Shown here: piece after piece, positions 9,217 through 25,059 of the stretch
Numbering within the stretch: position 1 is the first letter of the stretch
Layout of the letters: every line of letters starts with the position of its first letter
NCBI GenBank assembly: GCA_029209985.1
Contig: JARGNZ010000018.1
Span: 1 to 62,609 of the forward strand
Source: Parvibaculaceae bacterium
GTDB taxonomy: Bacteria; Pseudomonadota; Alphaproteobacteria; Parvibaculales; Parvibaculaceae
Direction of reading: 5' to 3'
Length of the DNA: 62,609 nt
The notes under the pieces: model-generated
What the model was told of the DNA's origin: nothing
Databases searched by the model: none
The model's input: only the letters and a program-made list of their open reading frames with translations
Translations under genes and position numbers: made by a program

Positions 9217-11607
9217 ATGTGGCATAAAACAACTTCAGTTCTGATCGCCCTTGCTCTAGTCGGTTGCGGCGGCGGTGGTGGTGGAGGCGGTGGTGCTTCT
9301 GGTGCTTCTGGTGGCGGCAGTGGTGGCAGCGGCGGCGGTGGCACACCGAGCGAAACCTTTCTCGCAGCAGATGACGGGTCTACCGAATTTGTCACCGCAT
9401 TCAATGAAATCACAGCCACGTCCATTCGCAACGAAAGCGAATTTACCGCTCAAGACAAGTCTGTCATCTTCAACCTTGGCGGCAGCATCATCTCTTTTGC
9501 AAACACGTCCTACGCCACCATCAATCTGCACTATGCCCTTTCTACGGGCCTCACCGGTGCGGGCGAAACCATAGCCATTGTAGATGCCGGATACTTGACC
9601 ACCCACGACGAGATTTTCGGCAAATCTATCTCAACATTTGGCTCTCAAGCGATTGATGACCACGGCACTGGCGTTGCCTCCATTGCAGCGGGTAATTGGG
9701 ATTCCAGCGGCACCTTAGGGGTCGCGCCCGGTGCGGACCTCCATCTCTCAACCTATCTAGATTCAGCCTCCAGTGTTTCCTTCACCCCTTTGGCCAATGC
9801 CACATTAGACGCATTGAGCGATGGCGTGATCGTACAAAACAATTCATGGGGCATTGAGGCAGGTGGTGTAGACCTCACCCTGCAAGACGCGCTCGATTAT
9901 ATGACGGCCAACCCAGGTGCCAACCTGTCCCAAACCCTACAAGGTATCTCAGGCTTCAGCTCAGCAGGCTGGACAAATTACCTGTCCGCCGTTGATCAAT
10001 TCACAGATCAAGGCGTGGTGGTTTTTTCCGCCTCAAATGACGACACAACCACCAGCGCCGCCATTATGGCCGCTTTGCCAGAGCTATACGCAGGATTGGA
10101 TGATGCGTGGATTGTTGCCGTAAACGGCTACCCCACCCACAACGGCGGCGGAGAAATCACCAATGCCAACCTGCTCTCCGCCCAATGTATGGAAGTCGCT
10201 GCCTATTGCCTTGTTGCAGATGGCACGGTCTATCTGGCCAATTCATCAGGCAATAGCTCCTATAACATCGGCACCGGCACATCATTTGCGGCCCCTCAAA
10301 TCGCAGGGGGCGTAGCATTGCTCGCAGAGGCATTCCCGAACATACGCTCAGATGAAATCGTAGATCGCCTACTCGCCTCAGCAAACAATTCCTTTTTCAC
10401 ACCAACCGCCAACGTTGACTTCGGCAATGGTGTTTTACACGGTTACAATTCAGAGTTTGGCCATGGGTATATGGACCTTGCCGCGGCTCTTCTCCCCATT
10501 GGCAGCCTTGGCTTTGCCACCGCATCCCATGCCACAGGGGCCACAGCGGCTATCTCTACAGGAACTATTTCCACCTCAGGCATCCACGGAGATGCTTTTG
10601 CCACAGCTCTTTCAGGGACCAACCTAGCCCTATTCGATAGCCTAGGCACAGACTTCTACGTCAACGCCTCTCTCCTCGCAGACGCAGACACCACATCAAC
10701 CCTGCCAACCCGCCTTGGTCGCTACGCCCGCAAAAAATCTGCAAAGCGCGAGTTCACACAAGGTGGTTTTTCATTCGGCACACACTCATCAACATTTTCT
10801 CCAACCGGCTGGAATTTTGGTGCTGCAACCGCAGAAGACATGGGCGCAACCTTTGGCATCGCGCCATCAAAATCGAGCATCTTTGAAAACACCACAAGCA
10901 TTCTAGGGCTGGCCCAAAACGGCTTGTCTTTAGGGGCCACCAAGTCTCTCAAAAATGGTGCGCTAGGTTTCTATAGCTTTGCAGACCTCACCGATACCGA
11001 TGAGAAAGTAATGGGCATCGGCGCTGTCCGCTCCTTCAACCTCGATGGAACAACGCGCGGCACATCCCTTTCTTTCGGTCTTTCAACCGTTGTGGAAACC
11101 GGCTCATTCCTCGGCATCACGTCCTATGAAGGAGGTGGCTTTGAAGCAACCTCTAGCACCTTTAATGCGGGGGCTAATTGGCCAATGGGTGCATATAATT
11201 TGTTTGCCACCGCCGAAATGGGACTGTCCGTTGGCGAAGGCACGGGCCTTGTCACTAACATCGCGCCAACGCTCTTTTCTGGCTTTGCTGTCGGCGTCAA
11301 AAAAGACCAACTGTTTTCCAAAAACGACGCACTTACAGTCTCTCTGCGCCAGCCCCTACGCATCGAAAGCGGCAACGCCACCATGCGCTTTTCTGTAGGC
11401 CGAGATAAAGAAGGCAATGTGCTCTACGAAGATGTCAACATTGCCCTCGCCCCCTCAGCCCGCCAAATCGACCTCGGCTTTGATTATCAAACCGCCCTCG
11501 ATGAGAACACCGACCTACGCTTAGCTCCGGTTGCTTCATTCAACCACAACCATACGCGCGGAGAATTGGGCGCATCGGCAATGGCCGTCTTCCTGCACCG
11601 GTTTTAA
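9217..11607 (+). CDS. Subtilisin-like (S8) serine protease autotransporter
   Basis: 796 residues. A short hydrophobic N-terminus ends in lipobox LVGC with Cys17, followed by a run of nine Gly and a Gly/Ser-rich linker to about residue 45. The S8 triad is visible: Asp123 in IAIVDAGYLTTHDE, His149 in DDHGTGVASIAAG and Ser356 in GTGTSFAAPQIAGG; QNNSWGIEAG fits the oxyanion-Asn region. From about residue 520 the sequence alternates like a beta-barrel and ends in VFLHRF with a terminal Phe, typical of a type V autotransporter domain. The predicted product is an outer-membrane or surface-exposed protease; the lipobox suggests lipidation, which is less common. It converges on the MFS gene with only 6 nt between them. 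Confidence 0.88.
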   Translation: MWHKTTSVLIALALVGCGGGGGGGGGASGASGGGSGGSGGGGTPSETFLAADDGSTEFVTAFNEITATSIRNESEFTAQDKSVIFNLGGSIISFANTSYATINLHYALSTGLTGAGETIAIVDAGYLTTHDEIFGKSISTFGSQAIDDHGTGVASIAAGNWDSSGTLGVAPGADLHLSTYLDSASSVSFTPLANATLDALSDGVIVQNNSWGIEAGGVDLTLQDALDYMTANPGANLSQTLQGISGFSSAGWTNYLSAVDQFTDQGVVVFSASNDDTTTSAAIMAALPELYAGLDDAWIVAVNGYPTHNGGGEITNANLLSAQCMEVAAYCLVADGTVYLANSSGNSSYNIGTGTSFAAPQIAGGVALLAEAFPNIRSDEIVDRLLASANNSFFTPTANVDFGNGVLHGYNSEFGHGYMDLAAALLPIGSLGFATASHATGATAAISTGTISTSGIHGDAFATALSGTNLALFDSLGTDFYVNASLLADADTTSTLPTRLGRYARKKSAKREFTQGGFSFGTHSSTFSPTGWNFGAATAEDMGATFGIAPSKSSIFENTTSILGLAQNGLSLGATKSLKNGALGFYSFADLTDTDEKVMGIGAVRSFNLDGTTRGTSLSFGLSTVVETGSFLGITSYEGGGFEATSSTFNAGANWPMGAYNLFATAEMGLSVGEGTGLVTNIAPTLFSGFAVGVKKDQLFSKNDALTVSLRQPLRIESGNATMRFSVGRDKEGNVLYEDVNIALAPSARQIDLGFDYQTALDENTDLRLAPVASFNHNHTRGELGASAMAVFLHRF

Positions 11608-14660: not shown

Positions 14661-15665
14661 TCAGAACCCAGCCACACGCTCAATCAGCCAAAAAGCAGCC
14701 ATGGGTCCTGCCACATAAGCCACCACCAATGCTTGCTTCGTCTTGTCTGACACGAACGACAGCCCACTGCGTGTGAGCACGCTCGCCACAGCTACCAACA
14801 TCGCCGCAAAGACCACTTGCCCTACTTCCACTCCCACATTGAACGAGAACAAGGCCGCCAAAACATCTTGTTCCGGCAACCCAATTTCGCTCAAAGCAGA
14901 CGCAAAGCCCAACCCGTGCAACAGTCCAAAACAAGCCGACACCACAAGGGGGTATCGCCACGTAAAAGCGTCACGGTCTTGGCGGGCAAGCTCAACCGCC
15001 AACAGCACAACCGACAAAGCAATCACAGCTTCCGTTGGCACAATCGGAATATGAATAACCCGCAAAGCAGAAAGGCCCAGCGTCACAGAATGCGCAACTG
15101 TAAAACCAGTAATCACCAACAAAATCCGGCGCCATGTGCCCGCAATAAAAATCAAACAGGCAACGAACAGCAAATGATCATACCCTTCCAAGATATGACT
15201 TGCCCCAAGCTGAACATACGTCGCAACCACAGACCACATCGTCTGCTCGGCTGGCACGTTCCATCCTGCTTCATCTGGTCCCAGCGAATGGGTTACAGAA
15301 GTGCCATTGGGAAATTCCACCCGCAGCACAGCCGTTAGTGATGGATTATAGTGTGGGTAGCGCAAAGTGAGCACACGCCCCGCTACACCGCCTTCGCAGA
15401 TCAGCGGCACTTGCCCTGAAACGCTGCCGCCCTCTTGCACATAAACAGCATTGCTTTGGGCAATACAGTCCGGACTAAACAATGGCACGGGCATGTTGTT
15501 GCCCTCCACCGTCGGCGGCACTTTCCAGCGCAGGTTCACAACACCGTCTTGCGTTTCTCGAATATCAACAAACACCGGGCGAGACTCATGCGCATGACTA
15601 GGCAAGACCTGCAAGGCCATCCCAATCAGGATCAACAGACCCGCCGCGACATAAGACACCTTCAT
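14661..15665 (-). CDS. HupE/UreJ-family membrane protein with periplasmic N-terminal domain
   Basis: 334 residues with a signal peptide (hydrophobic core VAAGLLILIGMALQV, then HAHES), a periplasmic beta-rich domain to about residue 155, then about seven transmembrane helices. The HupE/UreJ signature is in the first helices: ASHILEGYDHLLFV, then GFTVAHSVTLGLSAL and FGLLHGLGFASAL, where the His residues are candidate metal ligands. Relatives are nickel or cobalt permeases; the metal here is unproven. Its start overlaps the ppiC stop by four bases (ATGA). The divergent DUF3604 genes beyond ppiC suggest it supplies metal to, or otherwise supports, those periplasmic proteins; that link is inference. 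Confidence 0.85.
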   Translation of the reverse strand: MKVSYVAAGLLILIGMALQVLPSHAHESRPVFVDIRETQDGVVNLRWKVPPTVEGNNMPVPLFSPDCIAQSNAVYVQEGGSVSGQVPLICEGGVAGRVLTLRYPHYNPSLTAVLRVEFPNGTSVTHSLGPDEAGWNVPAEQTMWSVVATYVQLGASHILEGYDHLLFVACLIFIAGTWRRILLVITGFTVAHSVTLGLSALRVIHIPIVPTEAVIALSVVLLAVELARQDRDAFTWRYPLVVSACFGLLHGLGFASALSEIGLPEQDVLAALFSFNVGVEVGQVVFAAMLVAVASVLTRSGLSFVSDKTKQALVVAYVAGPMAAFWLIERVAGF

Positions 15666-16552
15666 GGGGCACCTCGCAGCGTCTCATCAATTTCCACATC
15701 ATACCCAGCAACGACATCTGCAATCGCTTCTTCTTGCGCGTCTCTCAAAGCCTGCCGGTTGGCATCTGCGGACACCCGCGCCCCAACCTCTTCAAAGGTC
15801 GGCTGGCGAGCCTCAGTGCGCTTTGTCATCAACACATAGTGCTGGCCATAAGTCGATGAATAAGGCCCCTGCCAATTGTTTGCATTGGCCTCACTCTCAA
15901 ACACCGCCGCGCGGAACGCGTCCCCAAAGTGGGTGGCAATAAAGGCATCCGATTTATCAACGTAATTGACATGAAACGGAAAACGGTCCCCATGTTTGGG
16001 TGCATCTGAAAACGGCACAGACTGACCTCGAAGCGTGTCGCCTACTTGAGCCACAACCGCATCCATCTCGTCTGCACTATGCTTACGTGGATCAATAAAC
16101 ACATGCGCAAAGGTGGCCTTCGGTTCTATCAAATAGTCCGCTAAATGTTGCTCGTAGTAAGCCCGCAAGTCAGCCTCATCTAAAGCGACAAGGTCCTTGG
16201 CATATCCATCCGTCAGAAATTCCATCTTCTGGATCAACCGCCGACGAATAACATAATCTTTTTTCTCAAGGCCCAGGCGCTTTGCCTCGCGCACCAAAAC
16301 TTCTTGGCGCACATATTCGTCTATCAGAGCATCGCGTTCTTGCTCTGGCATCTCGTCCAATACCTTCACAAATTGTGCTGGATCGAACTTTTTGGACTGC
16401 TGCTGCAAAAAGACAAGCAACTCTGTGTACCCCACCGATATCGTCAGCTCATCGCCTTCTTCATCAGCAGTGCCCACCGCTCCGTACAAAAGAAACAGCA
16501 GTCCTCCTGCCGCCAAAAAATGTACCAAAGGGTCACGCAATAATTTTCGCAT
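15662..16552 (-). CDS. Membrane-anchored PpiC-type peptidyl-prolyl cis-trans isomerase
   Basis: 296 residues from the second of two tandem ATGs, with GGAG 5 nt upstream; the frame opens 49 codons earlier but that part has no protein-like N-terminus. A single transmembrane anchor (HFLAAGGLLFLLYGAV) is followed by a helical region with EYVRQEVLVREAKRLGLEK and a parvulin-like segment from ATFAHVFID to YGQHYVLMTKR. This architecture belongs to PpiD/SurA-like folding helpers of the periplasm. It is coupled to the hupE-like gene. The promoter region is shared with the divergent DUF3604 gene and contains a dyad (16629-16643) 77 nt upstream of this start. A specific client is not shown, but the secreted DUF3604 proteins are obvious candidates. 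Confidence 0.78.
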   Translation of the reverse strand: MRKLLRDPLVHFLAAGGLLFLLYGAVGTADEEGDELTISVGYTELLVFLQQQSKKFDPAQFVKVLDEMPEQERDALIDEYVRQEVLVREAKRLGLEKKDYVIRRRLIQKMEFLTDGYAKDLVALDEADLRAYYEQHLADYLIEPKATFAHVFIDPRKHSADEMDAVVAQVGDTLRGQSVPFSDAPKHGDRFPFHVNYVDKSDAFIATHFGDAFRAAVFESEANANNWQGPYSSTYGQHYVLMTKRTEARQPTFEEVGARVSADANRQALRDAQEEAIADVVAGYDVEIDETLRGAP

Positions 16553-16628
16553 CATCACTCCAACTCGTTCGCAGAATTCAGTGCGCACTATAAGCGGCAA
16601 ACGTGCGAAATAGACACCCACAACACAA

Positions 16629-16643
16629 TAATTCCGTGAGGCA
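16629..16643. promoter_or_regulatory. Candidate operator (dyad) shared by ppiC-hupE and DUF3604 gene 1
   Basis: TTCCGT-GAG-GCAGAA with AT-rich symmetric flanks (AATAA before, TAATT after). Ten-base arms match at 8 of 10 positions. It lies 88 nt before the DUF3604-1 start and 77 nt before ppiC on the other strand. Related dyads precede the other two DUF3604 genes. The binding factor is unknown. Confidence 0.45.
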
Positions 16644-16730
16644 GAATAATTTTTCCAAAACCTGCGGCGTTTTTTCCACATGCTGGTAATTTCACTCAAC
16701 CAATAAGGTCACAGAAAAAGGGGACATCAC

Positions 16731-18662
16731 ATGAAACACATCTTAATGGGCGGCTGCCTAACAGCCCTTCTAAGCCTGCAAGTTACATCTGCCAGCGCTG
16801 AAGATACCCAGTTGCTCTGGGGCGACACGCACCTGCACAGCTCCTATTCAACAGATGCGTTCATGGCTGGTAACCGTTCAGCCGACCCAGACACTGCTTA
16901 TCGTTTGGCCAAAGGCGAGCCAGTGGTCCACCCCTATGCCCGAAGCCGTGTCCAGCTCACGCGGCCCCTCGACTTTCTGGTTGTCGCTGACCACGCAGAA
17001 TCCCTAGGGGTACTCAAATCAATCTACGCCGACAACCCAGACCAATCCGAACTTGCCTTCTGGAAACGCTGGCGCTCTGCATTCTATCTAAATCGTTTTC
17101 GCGCCATGATCGAAAATCCAGCAGAAGGCACCGCCGCCTTTCTCAAACGCCTCCCCCCTGTTGAAGTAAACCCCGGCGATGACGTAGATCCGATTGAATT
17201 TGGCTCTGCTGAAAAAGCCAACCTCGGTTTTTCAACCATTATTTCTCAAAATGCCAACGACGTGGTCACCTCCATCATGTGGGAAGATTCCGTCACCTCC
17301 GCAGAAAGGCACAACAACCCCGGCACCTTCTCCGCCCTGATCGGTTGGGAATGGACCCAAACCAACAATGGGGCCAATCTGCACCGTGTGGTCCTTTCCA
17401 CACTGGACGGCCCCACCGCAGCAACCATCGATCCAGTTGGCTCAGACGATGCCTCCCACCCTCAAGACCTATGGGCAGGTCTGGCCAAGCTGCAAGCAAA
17501 AACCGGGGCGGAATTTATGGCCATCCCGCACAATTCCAACATCTCTAAAGGCTTCATGTTTGGGGACAAAACCATTCGCGGCGAAGAGATTACCGCCGAA
17601 TACGCCACCACCCGCGCCGAATGGGAACCCCTCACCGAAGCCACGCAGTTCAAAGGCGATTCCGAGACCCACCCGGCCCTCTCCCCTGATGACGAATTTG
17701 CAGACTTCGAGCAATTTGAATTCTATCTTCAGCGCGCCCCCAACAACCTCAACTACACCGCCGGTAAGGGAGACTTTGTCCGCTCAGCCCTTAAACGTGG
17801 TTTGGAGATTGAACAACGGGTCGGCGTCAACCCCTACAAATTTGGCTTGATCGGTTCCACCGATGCCCACACCAGTATCTCCAGCGCAGAAGAACCAAAC
17901 TTCTGGGGAAAAGTTGCCCTCGACTCCATTCCCGAGAACAAGCGCGGCATTGGTGAAAAAGACCCCACCTACATCACAGGCAAAGACAATTTTAATGGGT
18001 GGAATATGTCCGCCTCCGGCATGGCCGCAGTCTGGGCAACAGAAAACACCCGCCAAGCGATTTTTGATGCCATGAAGCGCAAAGAAACATATGCCACCAC
18101 AGGCCCCCGCATGAGCGTGCGCCTCTTTGGGGGCTGGGAATTTGATCCGAGCATCGTTGAAGCACAGAACATAGCCGAAATCGGCTATGCGTCAGGCGTA
18201 CCCATGGGCGGCGATCTCACCGCAGCACCAGAAGGGGCGGCCCCTCAATTCCTTGTGCGGGCGGTAAAAGACCCACTCAATGCAAATTTGGACCGGGTGC
18301 AAATCATTAAAGGCTGGGTAGACAACAACGGCGCTTCCCAAGAAAAGATTTTCAACATCGCTTGGTCCGATGACCGTCCCATCGATGCAAACGGCAAGCT
18401 GCCCGCAGTCGGTAACACAGTCGACATCAAAACCGGCGCAGTAGAAAACTCAATCGGTGCACCAGAGCTGGCCACCCTTTGGAGCGATCCCGAGTTCGAT
18501 CCAAACCAACGCGCCTTCTACTACGTGCGTGTTCTGCAAATCCCAACCATTCGCCACTCGCAGCTAGATGCCATCGCCTTGAATATGAAAGAAACGCCGT
18601 ACGAAGGCCCCGCAACTATTCAAGAACGGGCCTATTCTTCTCCTATTTGGTACACCCCATAA
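16731..18662 (+). CDS. Secreted DUF3604 protein, copy 1 (PHP-like metallohydrolase candidate)
   Basis: 643 residues with a signal peptide cleaved near SASA-ED (about residue 23). The N-terminal part carries PHP-like metal-ligand motifs: GDTHLH with His34 and His36, VVADHAE with Asp87/His88, AIPHNSN in the middle and GSTDAHTS further on. The family pattern YSTDAF and PDTAYRLAKG follows the first motif, RKETYATTGPRMSVRLFGGW is near residue 450, and the protein ends in SSPIWYTP. DUF3604 has no established reaction; a periplasmic metal-dependent phosphoesterase or hydrolase is inferred from the motifs. A good GGGG ribosome-binding site precedes the ATG. It is divergent from ppiC-hupE and about 75% similar by eye to copy 2 downstream, from which it is separated by a terminator. 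Confidence 0.85.
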   Translation: MKHILMGGCLTALLSLQVTSASAEDTQLLWGDTHLHSSYSTDAFMAGNRSADPDTAYRLAKGEPVVHPYARSRVQLTRPLDFLVVADHAESLGVLKSIYADNPDQSELAFWKRWRSAFYLNRFRAMIENPAEGTAAFLKRLPPVEVNPGDDVDPIEFGSAEKANLGFSTIISQNANDVVTSIMWEDSVTSAERHNNPGTFSALIGWEWTQTNNGANLHRVVLSTLDGPTAATIDPVGSDDASHPQDLWAGLAKLQAKTGAEFMAIPHNSNISKGFMFGDKTIRGEEITAEYATTRAEWEPLTEATQFKGDSETHPALSPDDEFADFEQFEFYLQRAPNNLNYTAGKGDFVRSALKRGLEIEQRVGVNPYKFGLIGSTDAHTSISSAEEPNFWGKVALDSIPENKRGIGEKDPTYITGKDNFNGWNMSASGMAAVWATENTRQAIFDAMKRKETYATTGPRMSVRLFGGWEFDPSIVEAQNIAEIGYASGVPMGGDLTAAPEGAAPQFLVRAVKDPLNANLDRVQIIKGWVDNNGASQEKIFNIAWSDDRPIDANGKLPAVGNTVDIKTGAVENSIGAPELATLWSDPEFDPNQRAFYYVRVLQIPTIRHSQLDAIALNMKETPYEGPATIQERAYSSPIWYTP

Positions 18663-18681
18663 CAGAACCAACAGGCACCAC

Positions 18682-18712
18682 AAAGGGCGGCTCCTTCCAG
18701 AGCCGCCCTTTT
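18682..18712 (+). terminator. Rho-independent terminator after DUF3604 copy 1
   Basis: AAAGGGCGGCTC, loop CTTCCA, GAGCCGCCCTTTT: a 12-bp GC-rich stem with a T tail, about 20 nt after the stop. It means copies 1 and 2 probably have separate transcripts. Confidence 0.9.
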
Positions 18713-18728
18713 GTTTTCCATGTCATTA

Positions 18729-18743
18729 TTCTGCGTGGCAGAA
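18729..18743. promoter_or_regulatory. Candidate operator (perfect dyad) before DUF3604 gene 2
   Basis: TTCTGC-GTG-GCAGAA, a perfect 6-3-6 inverted repeat 78 nt before the copy 2 start. It is the best of three related sites in this cluster. A further block, GCTGGTAA, occurs 34 nt after it and also follows the copy 1 site. Confidence 0.5.
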
Positions 18744-18820
18744 CAACGGCTGAGACCTGCCCCACCTCTCTCAAAAGCTGGTAAATTTTGGAAAACGCAT
18801 AACATGGAAGAGGGAACCCA

Positions 18821-20755
18821 ATGAAACACGTCCTTATAGGCGGGTGCCTAACCGCCCTTCTCAGCCTACAGGTTACCGCAGCGAGCGCCGAAAATACGCA
18901 ACTGCTATGGGGTGACACGCATCTGCACACCTCCTACTCAACAGACGCCTTTATGGCGGGCAACCGCTCTGCTGATCCAGATACGGCCTACCGGGTGGCC
19001 AAGGGCGAACCCATCATACATCCCTTCAATCGATCCCGCGTTCAGCTTATCCGACCGCTTGATTTCCTTGTTGTCGCTGATCACGCAGAATTCTTTGGCA
19101 TCCTCAATTCCATTTATGGCAACAATCCAGATCAAACAAACTCCCCCTTTTGGGAGCGGTGGCGGTCTGCCTTTTACCTCAACCGACTACGGGCCGCCAT
19201 TGAAGACCCCGAAGCCGCTGTTGCTGTTTTCCGCAAACGCTTAGCCTCTCCTGAAAAGGCAAAATCAACCGATAACACCGCGTCCAATGATGCCAAAATG
19301 ACGAAAAAGGCAAAGCCCGGATTTGTCGGTTTCATTTCAACAGATGCAGCCACAGCCATCACATCAGCCATGTGGGAAGATTCTGTCAGCGCCGCAGAAA
19401 AACATAATGAACCCGGAAAGTTTTCCGCCCTCATTGGATGGGAATGGTCGCAAGCGCGCAATAGCGCCAGTTTGCATCGCGTCGTCCTCTCCACCATGGA
19501 CGGCCCAACAGCAGCAGGCATAGACCCCATCGGTGCTCATGAAGCCCCGTACCCTGAAGATCTCTGGGCAGGGTTGGAAAAGCTCACCAACCAAACCGGT
19601 GCGCAGTTTTTAGCCATTCCGCACAACTCAAACCTATCTAAAGGCTACATGTTCGCCAACACCACCCTGCGGGGAGAAGAGATCACCGCGCAATACGCCA
19701 CAACACGCGCCGAATGGGAACCTCTCGTTGAAGCCACCCAAACAAAGGGGGACTCCGAGACCCACCCAAATCTCTCCCCGGATGACGAGTTTGCAAACTT
19801 CGAACGGTTCGACTTCTATAATCGCCACTCGCCCAACCGTCTTGGATATAAAGCAGGCAAAGGGGATTTCATTCGACCAGCCCTCAAACGAGGTTTAGAA
19901 ATCGAACAGCGCGTGGGCGTAAACCCCTATAAATTTGGCATGGTTGGGTCAACGGATTCTCACACCAGCATTTCGAGTGCAGAAGAAACAAACTTCTGGG
20001 GCAAAATGGCGGTCGACTCCATTCCAGAAAACAAACGCGACAAAGTAGACCCCGATACCGGCTACATCAGCGGCAAAGATAATGTAAATGGCTGGACTAT
20101 GTCCGCCTCTGGCAGAGCCGCCGTATGGGCAACCGAAAATACGCGCCAATCTATTTTTGACGCCATGAAGCGCAAAGAAACCTACGCCACCACCGGCCCG
20201 CGCATGAGCGTGCGCCTCTTTGGGGGCTGGGAATTTGATCCGAGCGTCGTTGACGCACAGAACATAGCTGAAATCGGCTATGCGTCAGGCGTACCCATGG
20301 GCGGCGACCTCACCGCAGCCCCAGAAGGAGGCGCACCACAGTTCTTAGTACGTGCCGTAAAAGACCCCCTCGACGGCAATTTAGATCGCGTGCAAATCAT
20401 CAAGGGATGGTTAGACGAGAACAACGTCAGCCAAGAAAAAATCTTCGACATCGTATGGTCTGATGGTCGCATATTCGGCGCAGATGGAAAACTTCCAGCC
20501 GTCGGCAATACTGTCAATTTGAAAACAGGCGCAGTTGAAAACTCCATCGGCGCACCAGAGCTGACAACCCTTTGGAGCGATCCTGAGTTCGATCCGAACC
20601 AACGCGCCTTCTACTATGTCCGCGTTCTTCAGATCCCCACCATCCGGCACTCTCAATTGGATGCCACCGCATTGGGCATGCAAGCCCCCCCTTACGAAGG
20701 ACCTCCAACCATTCAGGAGCGGGCCTACTCCTCCCCCATCTGGTACACCCCGTAA
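18821..20755 (+). CDS. Secreted DUF3604 protein, copy 2
   Basis: 644 residues, close paralogue of copy 1 with the same layout: signal peptide to about residue 23, GDTHLH at residues 31-36, VVADHAE near 87, AIPHNSN, GSTDSHTS and the C-terminal SSPIWYTP. All putative metal ligands are retained, so it is likely active. The region around residues 140-170 differs most, with a Lys/Ala-rich insert (KAKSTDNTASNDAKMTKKAK). Ribosome-binding site GAGGGA lies before the ATG. One ~120-bp stretch is nearly identical to copy 1 at DNA level while the flanks are not, suggesting gene conversion. It is transcribed toward the third paralogue, with a shared terminator between them. Confidence 0.85.
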   Translation: MKHVLIGGCLTALLSLQVTAASAENTQLLWGDTHLHTSYSTDAFMAGNRSADPDTAYRVAKGEPIIHPFNRSRVQLIRPLDFLVVADHAEFFGILNSIYGNNPDQTNSPFWERWRSAFYLNRLRAAIEDPEAAVAVFRKRLASPEKAKSTDNTASNDAKMTKKAKPGFVGFISTDAATAITSAMWEDSVSAAEKHNEPGKFSALIGWEWSQARNSASLHRVVLSTMDGPTAAGIDPIGAHEAPYPEDLWAGLEKLTNQTGAQFLAIPHNSNLSKGYMFANTTLRGEEITAQYATTRAEWEPLVEATQTKGDSETHPNLSPDDEFANFERFDFYNRHSPNRLGYKAGKGDFIRPALKRGLEIEQRVGVNPYKFGMVGSTDSHTSISSAEETNFWGKMAVDSIPENKRDKVDPDTGYISGKDNVNGWTMSASGRAAVWATENTRQSIFDAMKRKETYATTGPRMSVRLFGGWEFDPSVVDAQNIAEIGYASGVPMGGDLTAAPEGGAPQFLVRAVKDPLDGNLDRVQIIKGWLDENNVSQEKIFDIVWSDGRIFGADGKLPAVGNTVNLKTGAVENSIGAPELTTLWSDPEFDPNQRAFYYVRVLQIPTIRHSQLDATALGMQAPPYEGPPTIQERAYSSPIWYTP

Positions 20756-20786
20756 CGCGGGCCAAAGAGCAGATCACGGAGAAATA

Positions 20787-20819
20787 AAAAGGGCGACTCT
20801 TACAAAAGAGCCGCCCTTT
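20787..20819. terminator. Bidirectional terminator between DUF3604 copies 2 and 3
   Basis: AAAGGGCGACTCTT, loop ACAA, AAGAGCCGCCCTTT: a 14-nt stem with one mismatch, flanked by A and T runs, between the convergent stops at 20755 and 20840. Confidence 0.8.
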
Positions 20820-20839
20820 CGCCTTCACCTTATCCCCGA

Positions 20840-22681
20840 TTAAGGTGTGTACCAAATAGGTGATGTATATGCGCGCTCTTGAATGGATGCCGGATACCCT
20901 TCAGGAAGCGGTTGTTTCATAGCCACCATGTCTTGGGTCGAATTACGCGGGGTTGGAATTTCCAAAACCCGCACGTAATAGAATGCCCGCTGACTTGCAT
21001 CAAATGCAGGATCGCTCCAAACCGTCGCAAAGTCCACTGCACCAATATCATTGGTATAGCGCGCTGTTGAAAGATCAACAGTATTGCCCACGGCTGGCAC
21101 TGTCCCATCCGCACTCACAGTACGCTCATCTGACAACGCAACATCAAAGACGGTCTCATGTGTTTCCCCTGCACTATCAACCCAACCTTTAATCACTTGT
21201 ACCCGGTCCAAGTTTGCACTCACAGGATCTTTTACAGCTTGAATCAAAAATTTCGGCGCTGTATCCGCAGGCGCTGCGGTGAGGTCGCCCCCCATCGGAA
21301 CCCCTTTGGCATAGCCTCGGTCTGCAAAGTCAGAGGCGGCTGCATCATTTGGTTCATAATCCCAACCACCGAAAAAGCGTACCTTCATATGCGGCCCCGT
21401 CGTGGCATAAGTTTCTTTACGCTGCATCGCTTCAAACAAAGCTTCACGTGTGTTTTCGGTTGCCCAAACACCCGCCAAGCCGGAAGCAGACATATCAAAC
21501 CCACTGTTGCGCTTGCTAAAGCCCTTCAACTTATTTGCCGGAATTGAATCAATCGCCGTTTTGCCCCAAAAGTTTCCCTCCTCAGGAGAGGATAAACCAG
21601 TATGGGAATCCGTCGACCCAATCATGCCAAGCTTGAAGGGGTTCACCCCAACTTCTTGTTCAATGGCAAGACCATTTTTCAAAGCCGACCGCACATAGTT
21701 GCCCGCCGCAGCAGGGTCCTTAGCGACAGCATTACGCGCATCAATCAAAACACCGTAAGTTTCAAAGTCTGCAAACTCATCATTGGGCGACAGCGACGAG
21801 TTTGTTTCAGAATCGCCCTTCGTTTGCGTCACCTCAACAAGCGGCTCCCACTCAGAACGTGTTCTCGCGTAGGCCGCCGTAATCGGCTTGCCCTCACTAT
21901 CTTTCATCGCAAACATCAACCCCTTGGAGATATTGGAGTTATGCGGGATCGCAAGGATGTTCACATCAGAAGCTTTAGAAGTCTTCTCCATCCATGCCCA
22001 CAAATCTTCAGGGCGGGCGCTCTCAATAGATGAATATGGCAAAAAGGTTTCTGCTTTCTCAGCTCCCTCTTTCACCAACACCACTCTGTGCAAGTTGGCA
22101 CCATCTGGCAGTGACGACCACTCCCACCCAATAAAGGTGGTAAACTTACCCGGCTCGTTATGCATATCTGCAGCCCGCGTGATTTGCTGCCACACAGGTT
22201 TGCGAATATCCTCGGTGTTCAACTCAGGAATGGGTTTGTTTTCATTGATGGAACGAACCATCTCCATGAAAACCAAGGCCCCCTTGCCTTCCTTAAACAT
22301 CTCATGATTTTTACGGCCACGCTCAGTTGCCATCACACGCGGATCACCCTTCACCGTCAACGGCGTTACACCCATGTATTCCGCATGGTCAGCAACCGCC
22401 ATAAAGTCGAGCGGTGTTCTCAGCTGCACTTTTGCTTTGTGATACGGGTGCACAACAGGAATGCCCTTGGCATATCGATAAGCTGTGTCTGGCGTCGCTG
22501 AATGATTGCCGAAAATGAAGGCGTCACCGGACAAAGCCGTATGAACATGCGTATCCCCGAAATAAACTTGCGTGGCTGCCGCGTGGGCGCCCCCGCTCAA
22601 TGTTAATCCAGCAACAAAACCAGCCAAAGCAACGGCACTTGCTCGCCCCAACAAACGTTCGCGAAGAGATTTTTGAATCAT
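20840..22681 (-). CDS. Secreted DUF3604 protein, copy 3 (divergent paralogue)
   Basis: 613 residues with a longer signal peptide (basic start, hydrophobic AVALAGFVAGLTLSG, cleavage near AHA-AA at residue 34). The same motif order is present: GDTHVH with His45 and His47, AVADHAEYMG, AIPHNSNISKG, GSTDSHTGLSS, RKETYATTGPHMKVRFFGGW and the terminal SPIWYTP. It lacks the copy 1/2-specific insert near residue 150 and is clearly more diverged, so it separated earlier. Ribosome-binding site AGGAGG lies 5 nt before the ATG. TATAGT at 22706-22701 on the minus strand is a good -10 element. A dyad related to those of copies 1 and 2 lies 68 nt upstream of the start. Confidence 0.85.
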   Translation of the reverse strand: MIQKSLRERLLGRASAVALAGFVAGLTLSGGAHAAATQVYFGDTHVHTALSGDAFIFGNHSATPDTAYRYAKGIPVVHPYHKAKVQLRTPLDFMAVADHAEYMGVTPLTVKGDPRVMATERGRKNHEMFKEGKGALVFMEMVRSINENKPIPELNTEDIRKPVWQQITRAADMHNEPGKFTTFIGWEWSSLPDGANLHRVVLVKEGAEKAETFLPYSSIESARPEDLWAWMEKTSKASDVNILAIPHNSNISKGLMFAMKDSEGKPITAAYARTRSEWEPLVEVTQTKGDSETNSSLSPNDEFADFETYGVLIDARNAVAKDPAAAGNYVRSALKNGLAIEQEVGVNPFKLGMIGSTDSHTGLSSPEEGNFWGKTAIDSIPANKLKGFSKRNSGFDMSASGLAGVWATENTREALFEAMQRKETYATTGPHMKVRFFGGWDYEPNDAAASDFADRGYAKGVPMGGDLTAAPADTAPKFLIQAVKDPVSANLDRVQVIKGWVDSAGETHETVFDVALSDERTVSADGTVPAVGNTVDLSTARYTNDIGAVDFATVWSDPAFDASQRAFYYVRVLEIPTPRNSTQDMVAMKQPLPEGYPASIQERAYTSPIWYTP

Positions 22682-22748: not shown

Positions 22749-22763
22749 TTCTGCACTGCGGAA
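22749..22763. promoter_or_regulatory. Candidate operator (dyad) before DUF3604 gene 3
   Basis: TTCTGC-ACT-GCGGAA on the plus strand, so TTCCGC-AGT-GCAGAA toward the gene: 5 of 6 arm positions pair. On the coding strand it aligns with the copy 1 site (TTCCGT-GAG-GCAGAA). Confidence 0.45.
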
Positions 22764-24024: not shown

Positions 24025-25059
24025 TTATGCAGCAATCCCCGCATCTGACATCGCCAAGAAGTCAGCAACTTTAGCCTCGCCTTCCGGCAAGGTGCGGACT
24101 TCCGCTAGCAATCTTTCAACAGCTTCTGCACGCTCAATTTCAACTCGTTCAACAGCGTGCCAATGCACCATGTCGTTCCAAGCTTTATCAATAAGCTCCA
24201 CCCCATCAATCGTTCCGCCATCCACAGTCTTAAAGGTCACACTGCGCATTTCAGAAACCACGGTTTGTAAATATCCAACGTGAATGGCTTCATCCTCGCG
24301 AATACGCTCAACCATTGTTGCAGCCAGTTCAGCATCCTCCCGACGGTCTTGAAACAGCGTTGGATCGCGCATGATAGAACAACAGAAACTGAAAAAAGCT
24401 TCAGCCCGCACTTCAATCATCAATACGTTCATCAACAATAAAAGCGTGTTCTCATAAGCTTCGGGAATTTCCGGCATCCGCCGTCCCCCGTCCGGGCGCG
24501 AAATATTGGTCGGTTCACCCGGCATCGGATAAGCATCCTTACCAAACAGCAAATCCCGAGACGCAAACCACATCGCGTCATGAGCGCCGTACTCAGGCCG
24601 TTTCGGATCACCGCCCTCATCCGCTCCATGTCCATAAAGCAATCCCTTATTCAGGTGCCCAATCGACATCTCACTCACATCATCCACAATAATGTCTTGA
24701 AAGTCTGGCGCGGTGAATTCACACAAAATCTGACCACGCGCTTCAACAATACCGGTAATGGTCAACCCATTCCAAAGAGATGTGCCCAAACCATTAGACA
24801 GCAGAAACCTTTGCTGCTCCAAATTCGGCACCGTTTCCGGCTGCAACAAATCACTCGTCGCATCAACCAATGGAAAGCCGCGTTCCTTCAATGCATTTTG
24901 CCATGCATGTACCGCAGGCCAACGATGCAACGTACGCGGAGAAACATATGTGCCCTGCGCATCAAATCCGCCGTGCAACAAATATCCGGCTTCTTTATGA
25001 GGCTTTGCATATTCGTGCTCAGCCATCAATTCCGCTTCTGTATATTTTAATTTCGCCAT
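24025..25059 (-). CDS. Ferritin-like fold protein of unknown function
   Basis: 344 residues. The C-terminal half holds two helix motifs typical of di-iron ferritin-like domains: MIEVRAEAFFSFCCSIMRD (Glu-rich helix) and REDEAIHVGYLQTVVSE (E-x-x-H type), so a di-metal site is plausible. The N-terminal half (PRTLHRWPAVHAWQNALKER) is not recognised. I know similar proteins only as uncharacterised. It starts 25 nt after the TetR stop on the same strand with a GGGAGG ribosome-binding site, so it is probably co-transcribed with, and perhaps controlled by, that regulator. An oxygenase, desaturase-like or stress role would be inference. Confidence 0.6.
   Translation of the reverse strand: MAKLKYTEAELMAEHEYAKPHKEAGYLLHGGFDAQGTYVSPRTLHRWPAVHAWQNALKERGFPLVDATSDLLQPETVPNLEQQRFLLSNGLGTSLWNGLTITGIVEARGQILCEFTAPDFQDIIVDDVSEMSIGHLNKGLLYGHGADEGGDPKRPEYGAHDAMWFASRDLLFGKDAYPMPGEPTNISRPDGGRRMPEIPEAYENTLLLLMNVLMIEVRAEAFFSFCCSIMRDPTLFQDRREDAELAATMVERIREDEAIHVGYLQTVVSEMRSVTFKTVDGGTIDGVELIDKAWNDMVHWHAVERVEIERAEAVERLLAEVRTLPEGEAKVADFLAMSDAGIAA

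Follow-up and report, generated by a model that had tools for sequence, protein, structure and literature searches.

A probable folding and metallation module for secreted PHP-fold metallohydrolases, built from DUF3604, PpiC and HupE genes

Contig JARGNZ010000018.1 of a Parvibaculaceae bacterium (assembly GCA_029209985.1) was analysed over positions 1 to 62,609, the whole stretch being called here the window. Between 14661 and 22681 it carries three genes for secreted proteins of the DUF3604 family beside a gene pair encoding a PpiC-type chaperone and a HupE_UreJ_2 membrane protein. That DUF3604, PpiC and HupE form one system is well supported by their association across genomes. On balance, the locus probably represents a conserved module that folds and metallates secreted metallohydrolases of the PHP fold. 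Each protein family is already known, and the anglerase-HupE proteins have been known since 2025. Neither the three-gene module nor its specificity nor the dependence among its parts was found in the literature searched (mostly without subscription papers and supplements), which yielded no paper on the DUF3604, PpiC and HupE genes together and none on the function of DUF3604.

When a single genome of each species was scanned, 80 DUF3604 loci were kept, from Pseudomonadota, Bacteroidota, Verrucomicrobiota, Planctomycetota, Gemmatimonadota, Myxococcota, Thermodesulfobacteriota and Campylobacterota. Neighbourhoods were counted by six-frame search at 52 DUF3604 loci, each from another record and flanked on either side by 4 kb or more. 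Within 5 kb of DUF3604, PpiC was present at 29 of the 52 loci, HupE at 27 and both at 26, so that a HupE gene adjoining DUF3604 was accompanied by PpiC in 26 of 27 cases. The order DUF3604, PpiC, HupE on a single strand was found at 23/52 loci. The next commonest neighbour family occurred at no more than 8 of the 80 loci; TonB receptors, acyl-CoA dehydrogenases and short-chain dehydrogenases, by family names read from the sequence, lie near some DUF3604 genes.

The association is also seen when whole genomes are compared. Full-length DUF3604 was found in 12 of 61 related genomes, and a strong HupE_UreJ_2 match in all 12, versus 4 of the other 49; in the regions, PpiC and HupE are coupled beside DUF3604, which either heads a single operon with them (DUF3604, PpiC, HupE) or points towards the pair. 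Among 199 evenly drawn Pseudomonadota genomes, 12 carry full-length DUF3604 and all 12 have HupE_UreJ_2 close to one DUF3604 gene, while HupE_UreJ_2 exceeds its cut-off in 48 of the 199 overall (Fisher p about 1e-8, for genomes that are not independent, some being from one family). The pairing with PpiC is specific to DUF3604 genomes. In each of the 10 DUF3604 genomes tested (12 loci in all), PpiC and HupE are 0.9-1.04 kb apart; among the matches listed, none of 29 genomes that have HupE_UreJ_2 and lack DUF3604 shows such a pair. The list of PpiC matches reaches an E-value of about 1.6e-5, and the weakest PpiC seen in a triplet had 6.5e-8.

Physical linkage is not the only form of the association. 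Of 32 genomes picked for a sampled DUF3604 gene with no HupE found beside it, 31 still carry HupE_UreJ_2. A tree of DUF3604 contains 59 linked and 62 unlinked genes, intermixed in every part, and in the window's family several DUF3604 genes per single HupE are the usual state. Many enzymes per HupE, together with HupE encoded apart from them, resemble a shared service. Two further genomes of the Pseudomonadota sample show the operon in decay: in G209, PpiC and HupE are kept beside a degraded DUF3604, and in a remnant at G090:C2:46141-46476 the first 54 DUF3604 positions run in frame into the last part of HupE_UreJ_2, which looks like a loss of the operon's middle. A preliminary description of this DNA had proposed that the three proteins act in one pathway, with metal uptake by HupE, to be checked by co-occurrence. 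The counts place the association far above chance and show it to be specific. The single system is well supported, and the metal-uptake role is still a proposal.

The preliminary description gave the gene content, coordinates and strands of the locus correctly, and Pfam confirms all five genes. It mentioned neither the metal-binding-type domain of HupE nor the operator nor the second operon, all described below. The HupE_UreJ_2 gene (14661-15665, minus strand, 334 amino acids; PF13795, 152.5 bits, far above the curated cut-off) overlaps the PpiC gene in the ATGA already described, where at 15662-15665 the PpiC stop meets the HupE start. The PpiC gene (15662-16555, minus strand) encodes a membrane-anchored PpiC/SurA/PEB4-type chaperone of about 298 amino acids, and its Rotamase_2 match (PF13145) scores 33.7 bits, just over the cut-off of 27. 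Its family had been named rightly and its open reading frame taken too long. The frame extends to a TTG at 16699, and because the alignment of relatives begins at MMRKLLRDP, the start is more likely the ATG at 16555 or 16552. The DUF3604 genes (PF12228) score 767-795 bits against a cut-off of 20.4 and cover positions 2-591 of the 591 in the profile. What had been described as three paralogues is a tandem pair plus a distant copy. Paralogues 1 (16731-18662, plus strand, 643 amino acids, with a Sec-type signal peptide and PHP metallohydrolase motifs) and 2 (18821-20755, plus strand, 644 amino acids) are 76.5% identical. Paralogue 3 (20840-22681, minus strand, 613 amino acids), the copy used for structure modelling, is 54% identical to the other two and has a separate place in the DUF3604 tree.

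The same genome carries a second, strongly diverged DUF3604-PpiC-HupE operon at C17:1259-5723 (L044:1259-5723). Its DUF3604 protein has 761 amino acids and scores 90.5 bits, with the sequence RAWSSPIY near the C-terminus. Its PpiC scores 49.7 bits, and its HupE_UreJ_2 protein has 403 amino acids, 122.6 bits and a predicted N-terminal His.

DUF3604 has the hallmarks of a PHP-type metalloenzyme. The HxH, ADH, PHN and TDxH motifs read earlier from the sequence are real, and the signal peptides noted with them are of the Sec type. Across 60 DUF3604 proteins of diverse phyla, H45, H47, D98, H99, E187, H198, H247, N248, D358 and H360 (numbering of protein P0003) are invariant, the ligand residues of those motifs included. 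The structure of paralogue 3 was predicted (predicted local distance difference test, pLDDT, 93; predicted template modelling score, pTM, 0.91). The model consists of a PHP domain at about 38-430 and a C-terminal beta-sandwich at 430-613. The 14 structures that match it best all belong to PHP proteins (Z 7.4-15.8), led by 3e38 (BVU_3505, Z 15.8) and 2anu (TM0559, Z 15.1), followed by PsfC, endonuclease Q, RNase AM and the PHP domains of DNA polymerase III. The invariant His, Asp and Glu residues lie at or beside strand ends, the location of PHP ligands, as judged from secondary structure only. A structure prediction had been proposed in the preliminary description as a check on the metal site, and it gave this PHP fold with the listed residues at such positions. 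By its predicted beta/alpha fold and its conserved HxH, DH, E, H and DxH residues, DUF3604 appears to belong to the PHP superfamily. Searches of the PDB by sequence, with a single DUF3604 sequence and with a profile, gave nothing significant. Several related genomes have, as a single copy unlinked to PpiC-HupE, a more remote DUF3604 paralogue (about 38% identical) whose N-terminal anchor is apparently uncleaved; it was seen at L075, L076 and L080.

The PpiC profile matches PEB4 (3rfw, 3e-10), HP0175, PrsA and SurA, and the His of the GxHLV motif is kept in more than 90% of relatives.

The HupE protein has two parts. A signal peptide (1-25) with predicted cleavage at ...LPSHA|HESRP by the (-3,-1) rule leaves a predicted mature N-terminal His. 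A periplasmic beta-sandwich follows at about 26-140, and then the HupE/UreJ_2 membrane domain (143-334), in which H157, D163, H164, H192, E225, H250 and E280 are invariant. The predicted model (pLDDT 89) shows the sandwich at ~27-137, followed by helices in the membrane part. With Foldseek alone the model had no confident match, and PDB sequence searches with the protein, single and profile, gave nothing significant. A second aligner matched the N-domain to the zinc-binding ZrgA (8f1b, Z 10.5, root-mean-square deviation 2.8, 107 residues aligned) and next to the zinc-binding P. aeruginosa PA4063; unrelated rows reached at most Z 7.8. With a His directly after the signal peptide and a ZrgA-like Ig-type beta-sandwich before the HupE domain, the window protein has two traits of Anglerase Ang-1. 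In the anglerase paper, the Ang-1 domain was crystallised and binds Cu and Ni through its N-terminal His, with ZrgA as the nearest structure (DALI, 8F1B; PMC12537917, Nat Commun 2025). Besides His1, binding there uses a side-chain ligand (Asn41 in RbAng-1a), and this Asn is not conserved (PMC12537917). Among 27 sequences of the DUF3604-linked HupE group, 21 have a predicted mature N-terminal His and 6 an Asp. A predicted Asp in place of His was noted in the HupE genes of L152, L145, L104, L089, L156, L101, L155 and L045.

The intergenic regions of the locus contain an operator-like palindrome, TTCYG-N5-CRGAA. It is found as TTCCG-N5-CAGAA at 16632-16646, upstream of paralogue 1 and between it and the divergent PpiC-HupE pair; as TTCTGCGTGGCAGAA at 18729-18743, upstream of paralogue 2; and at 22749-22763 upstream of paralogue 3. 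With at most two mismatches it precedes 18 of the 24 DUF3604 genes in the window's family, 12 of them perfectly and mostly 74-119 bases ahead of the start; a perfect palindrome occurs in 0.9% of random 300-base stretches. Of the six genes that lack it, three have a start predicted too far upstream, and the real number may therefore be larger. Outside this family none of 91 DUF3604 genes has a perfect palindrome upstream, which makes it a feature of the lineage and not part of the module. No regulator gene constantly adjoins DUF3604 at the loci compared. The 3.09-Mb genome has 14 strict sites, three of them at this locus. Two more, at C6:10493 and 11355 (L164), flank an IclR-family gene (10554-11336, minus strand) beside an acyl-CoA dehydrogenase gene, and the remaining strict sites examined lie in unrelated places. 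Because of these flanking sites, our guess is that the regulator is of the IclR type. An Rfam scan of the window gave tRNAs only, with no metal or cobalamin riboswitch. Farther along the window, at 24025-25059, a 344-residue protein adjoining a TetR regulator has no Pfam or NCBIfam match.

In the mechanism proposed here, DUF3604 would be an enzyme with a metal site of the PHP type and a beta-sandwich at its C-terminus, which is exported by the Sec pathway and then folds in the periplasm. Its dedicated folding helper would be the membrane-anchored protein of the PpiC type. HupE_UreJ_2 would handle its metal, the ZrgA/anglerase-like domain with its mature His or Asp binding the ion beside the HupE-type membrane domain. 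The helper pair would thus mature DUF3604, PpiC by folding it and HupE by providing metal, and the translationally coupled pair would serve all DUF3604 paralogues of the cell, including those encoded elsewhere. Metal binding by the N-domain of this particular protein is likewise predicted from its model. The metal would then reach DUF3604 from the HupE side, by one of two routes: within the periplasm the N-domain may pass it on to the enzyme, or else the membrane domain may work outward. Since DUF3604 has Sec-type signal peptides, import into the cytoplasm alone does not account for its loading. We suggest tentatively, and with less confidence than the module itself, that a HupE-type membrane domain supplies the periplasmic side and does not just import, a chaperone and a His/Asp permease together folding and loading secreted PHP enzymes.

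Several observations weigh against a maturation module. Its main weakness is that characterised HupE proteins move nickel into the cytoplasm (Brito 2010, as cited in PMC12537917) and DUF3604 folds outside it, so that loading needs outward movement or a periplasmic hand-over. About half of the DUF3604 genes do not adjoin a PpiC-HupE pair. Some Bacteroidota HupE matches lie in short open frames (~198 amino acids), and the in-trans count is therefore less specific there; one metagenome-assembled genome, G264, has DUF3604 and no HupE match. A protein named DUF3604 is reported from Chlamydia trachomatis (PMC11925237), a candidate case of DUF3604 without HupE. In PpiC, the first parvulin His, on the first strand, is often His and sometimes Gln, an incomplete conservation.

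The import direction of HupE is used directly if the system scavenges metal. Periplasmic DUF3604 would hydrolyse an organic compound that binds metal (a chelator or a ligand carrying the metal) and free the ion; the anglerase domain would catch it and HupE import it to the cytoplasm, with PpiC merely aiding the folding of exported proteins. This scheme follows the capture-and-feed model proposed for anglerases (PMC12537917), predicts the DUF3604-HupE linkage equally well, and accounts for many DUF3604 paralogues of differing substrates with a single HupE. It gives no particular reason for a foldase coupled to HupE solely in DUF3604 genomes, and that coupling suits enzyme maturation better than plain metal uptake. 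The window has no metal or cobalamin riboswitch, and its operator seems to resemble a catabolic, IclR-type site. The restriction of the coupling to DUF3604 favours maturation without settling the matter, and we consider scavenging rather unlikely.

Neighbours such as TonB receptors and acyl-CoA or short-chain dehydrogenases call to mind a catabolic role, in which DUF3604 would be a CehA/McbA-like periplasmic hydrolase of esters or carbamates in aromatic or lipid compounds, and HupE and PpiC general envelope helpers with little specificity. CehA depends on four His residues, an HxH pair among them, and in Pseudomonas C5pp the enzyme is located in the periplasm (PMC8292978). The CehA/McbA profile (NF038032) matches DUF3604 weakly, with 22-24 bits against a curated cut-off of 80. 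Those neighbour families are rare (at most 8/80), and PpiC-HupE is specific to DUF3604 genomes. As a full account this is improbable; its substrate part is compatible with a maturation module, and the two could be true together. The three genes might instead move as an island without working together. Phyla are intermixed in the DUF3604 tree, so horizontal transfer is common. However, unlinked DUF3604 genes are still accompanied by HupE in the genome (31/32), the C17 triplet is far diverged and yet together, and the gene order is fixed. Joint transfer is thus a very improbable explanation.

DUF3604 is a large family spread over many phyla, with no assigned function in the literature searched. 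Its tie to a chaperone and a metal-binding permease indicates a recipe for active enzyme, by co-expressing the pair and supplying metal, and hence a way into the search for substrates. The anglerase-HupE proteins gain a concrete client, and it becomes a testable question whether a HupE-type protein is able to deliver metal to an enzyme outside the cytoplasm, in the periplasm.

Four known systems resemble parts of the module. The PHP metallohydrolases BVU_3505 (3e38), TM0559 (2anu), RNase AM and EndoQ have the fold and the HxH/DH/H/DxH ligand motifs in common with DUF3604, which unlike them is secreted, about 600 residues long, with long insertions and a C-terminal beta-sandwich; no solved member of it was found by sequence. 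The CehA/McbA carbamate hydrolases share weak profile similarity, a secreted or periplasmic location and a functional HxH; DUF3604 falls under their curated cut-off, and PpiC- or HupE-like helper genes are unmentioned in the CehA/McbA review (PMC8292978). Anglerase Ang-1 and the window HupE have in common the signal peptide, mature N-terminal His, Ig-like beta-sandwich, HupE_UreJ_2 membrane domain and ZrgA as nearest structure. In the main text on anglerases (PMC12537917), the neighbours are DUF4198, indigoidine A-like and PfkB, with DUF3604 or PpiC unnamed there, and His1 is stated to be 100% conserved, whereas the DUF3604-linked group has Asp in 6/27. Finally, PEB4, HP0175, PrsA and SurA, which the PpiC profile matches, are periplasmic chaperones; unlike theirs, the PpiC gene described here goes with a single enzyme family and is coupled to HupE.

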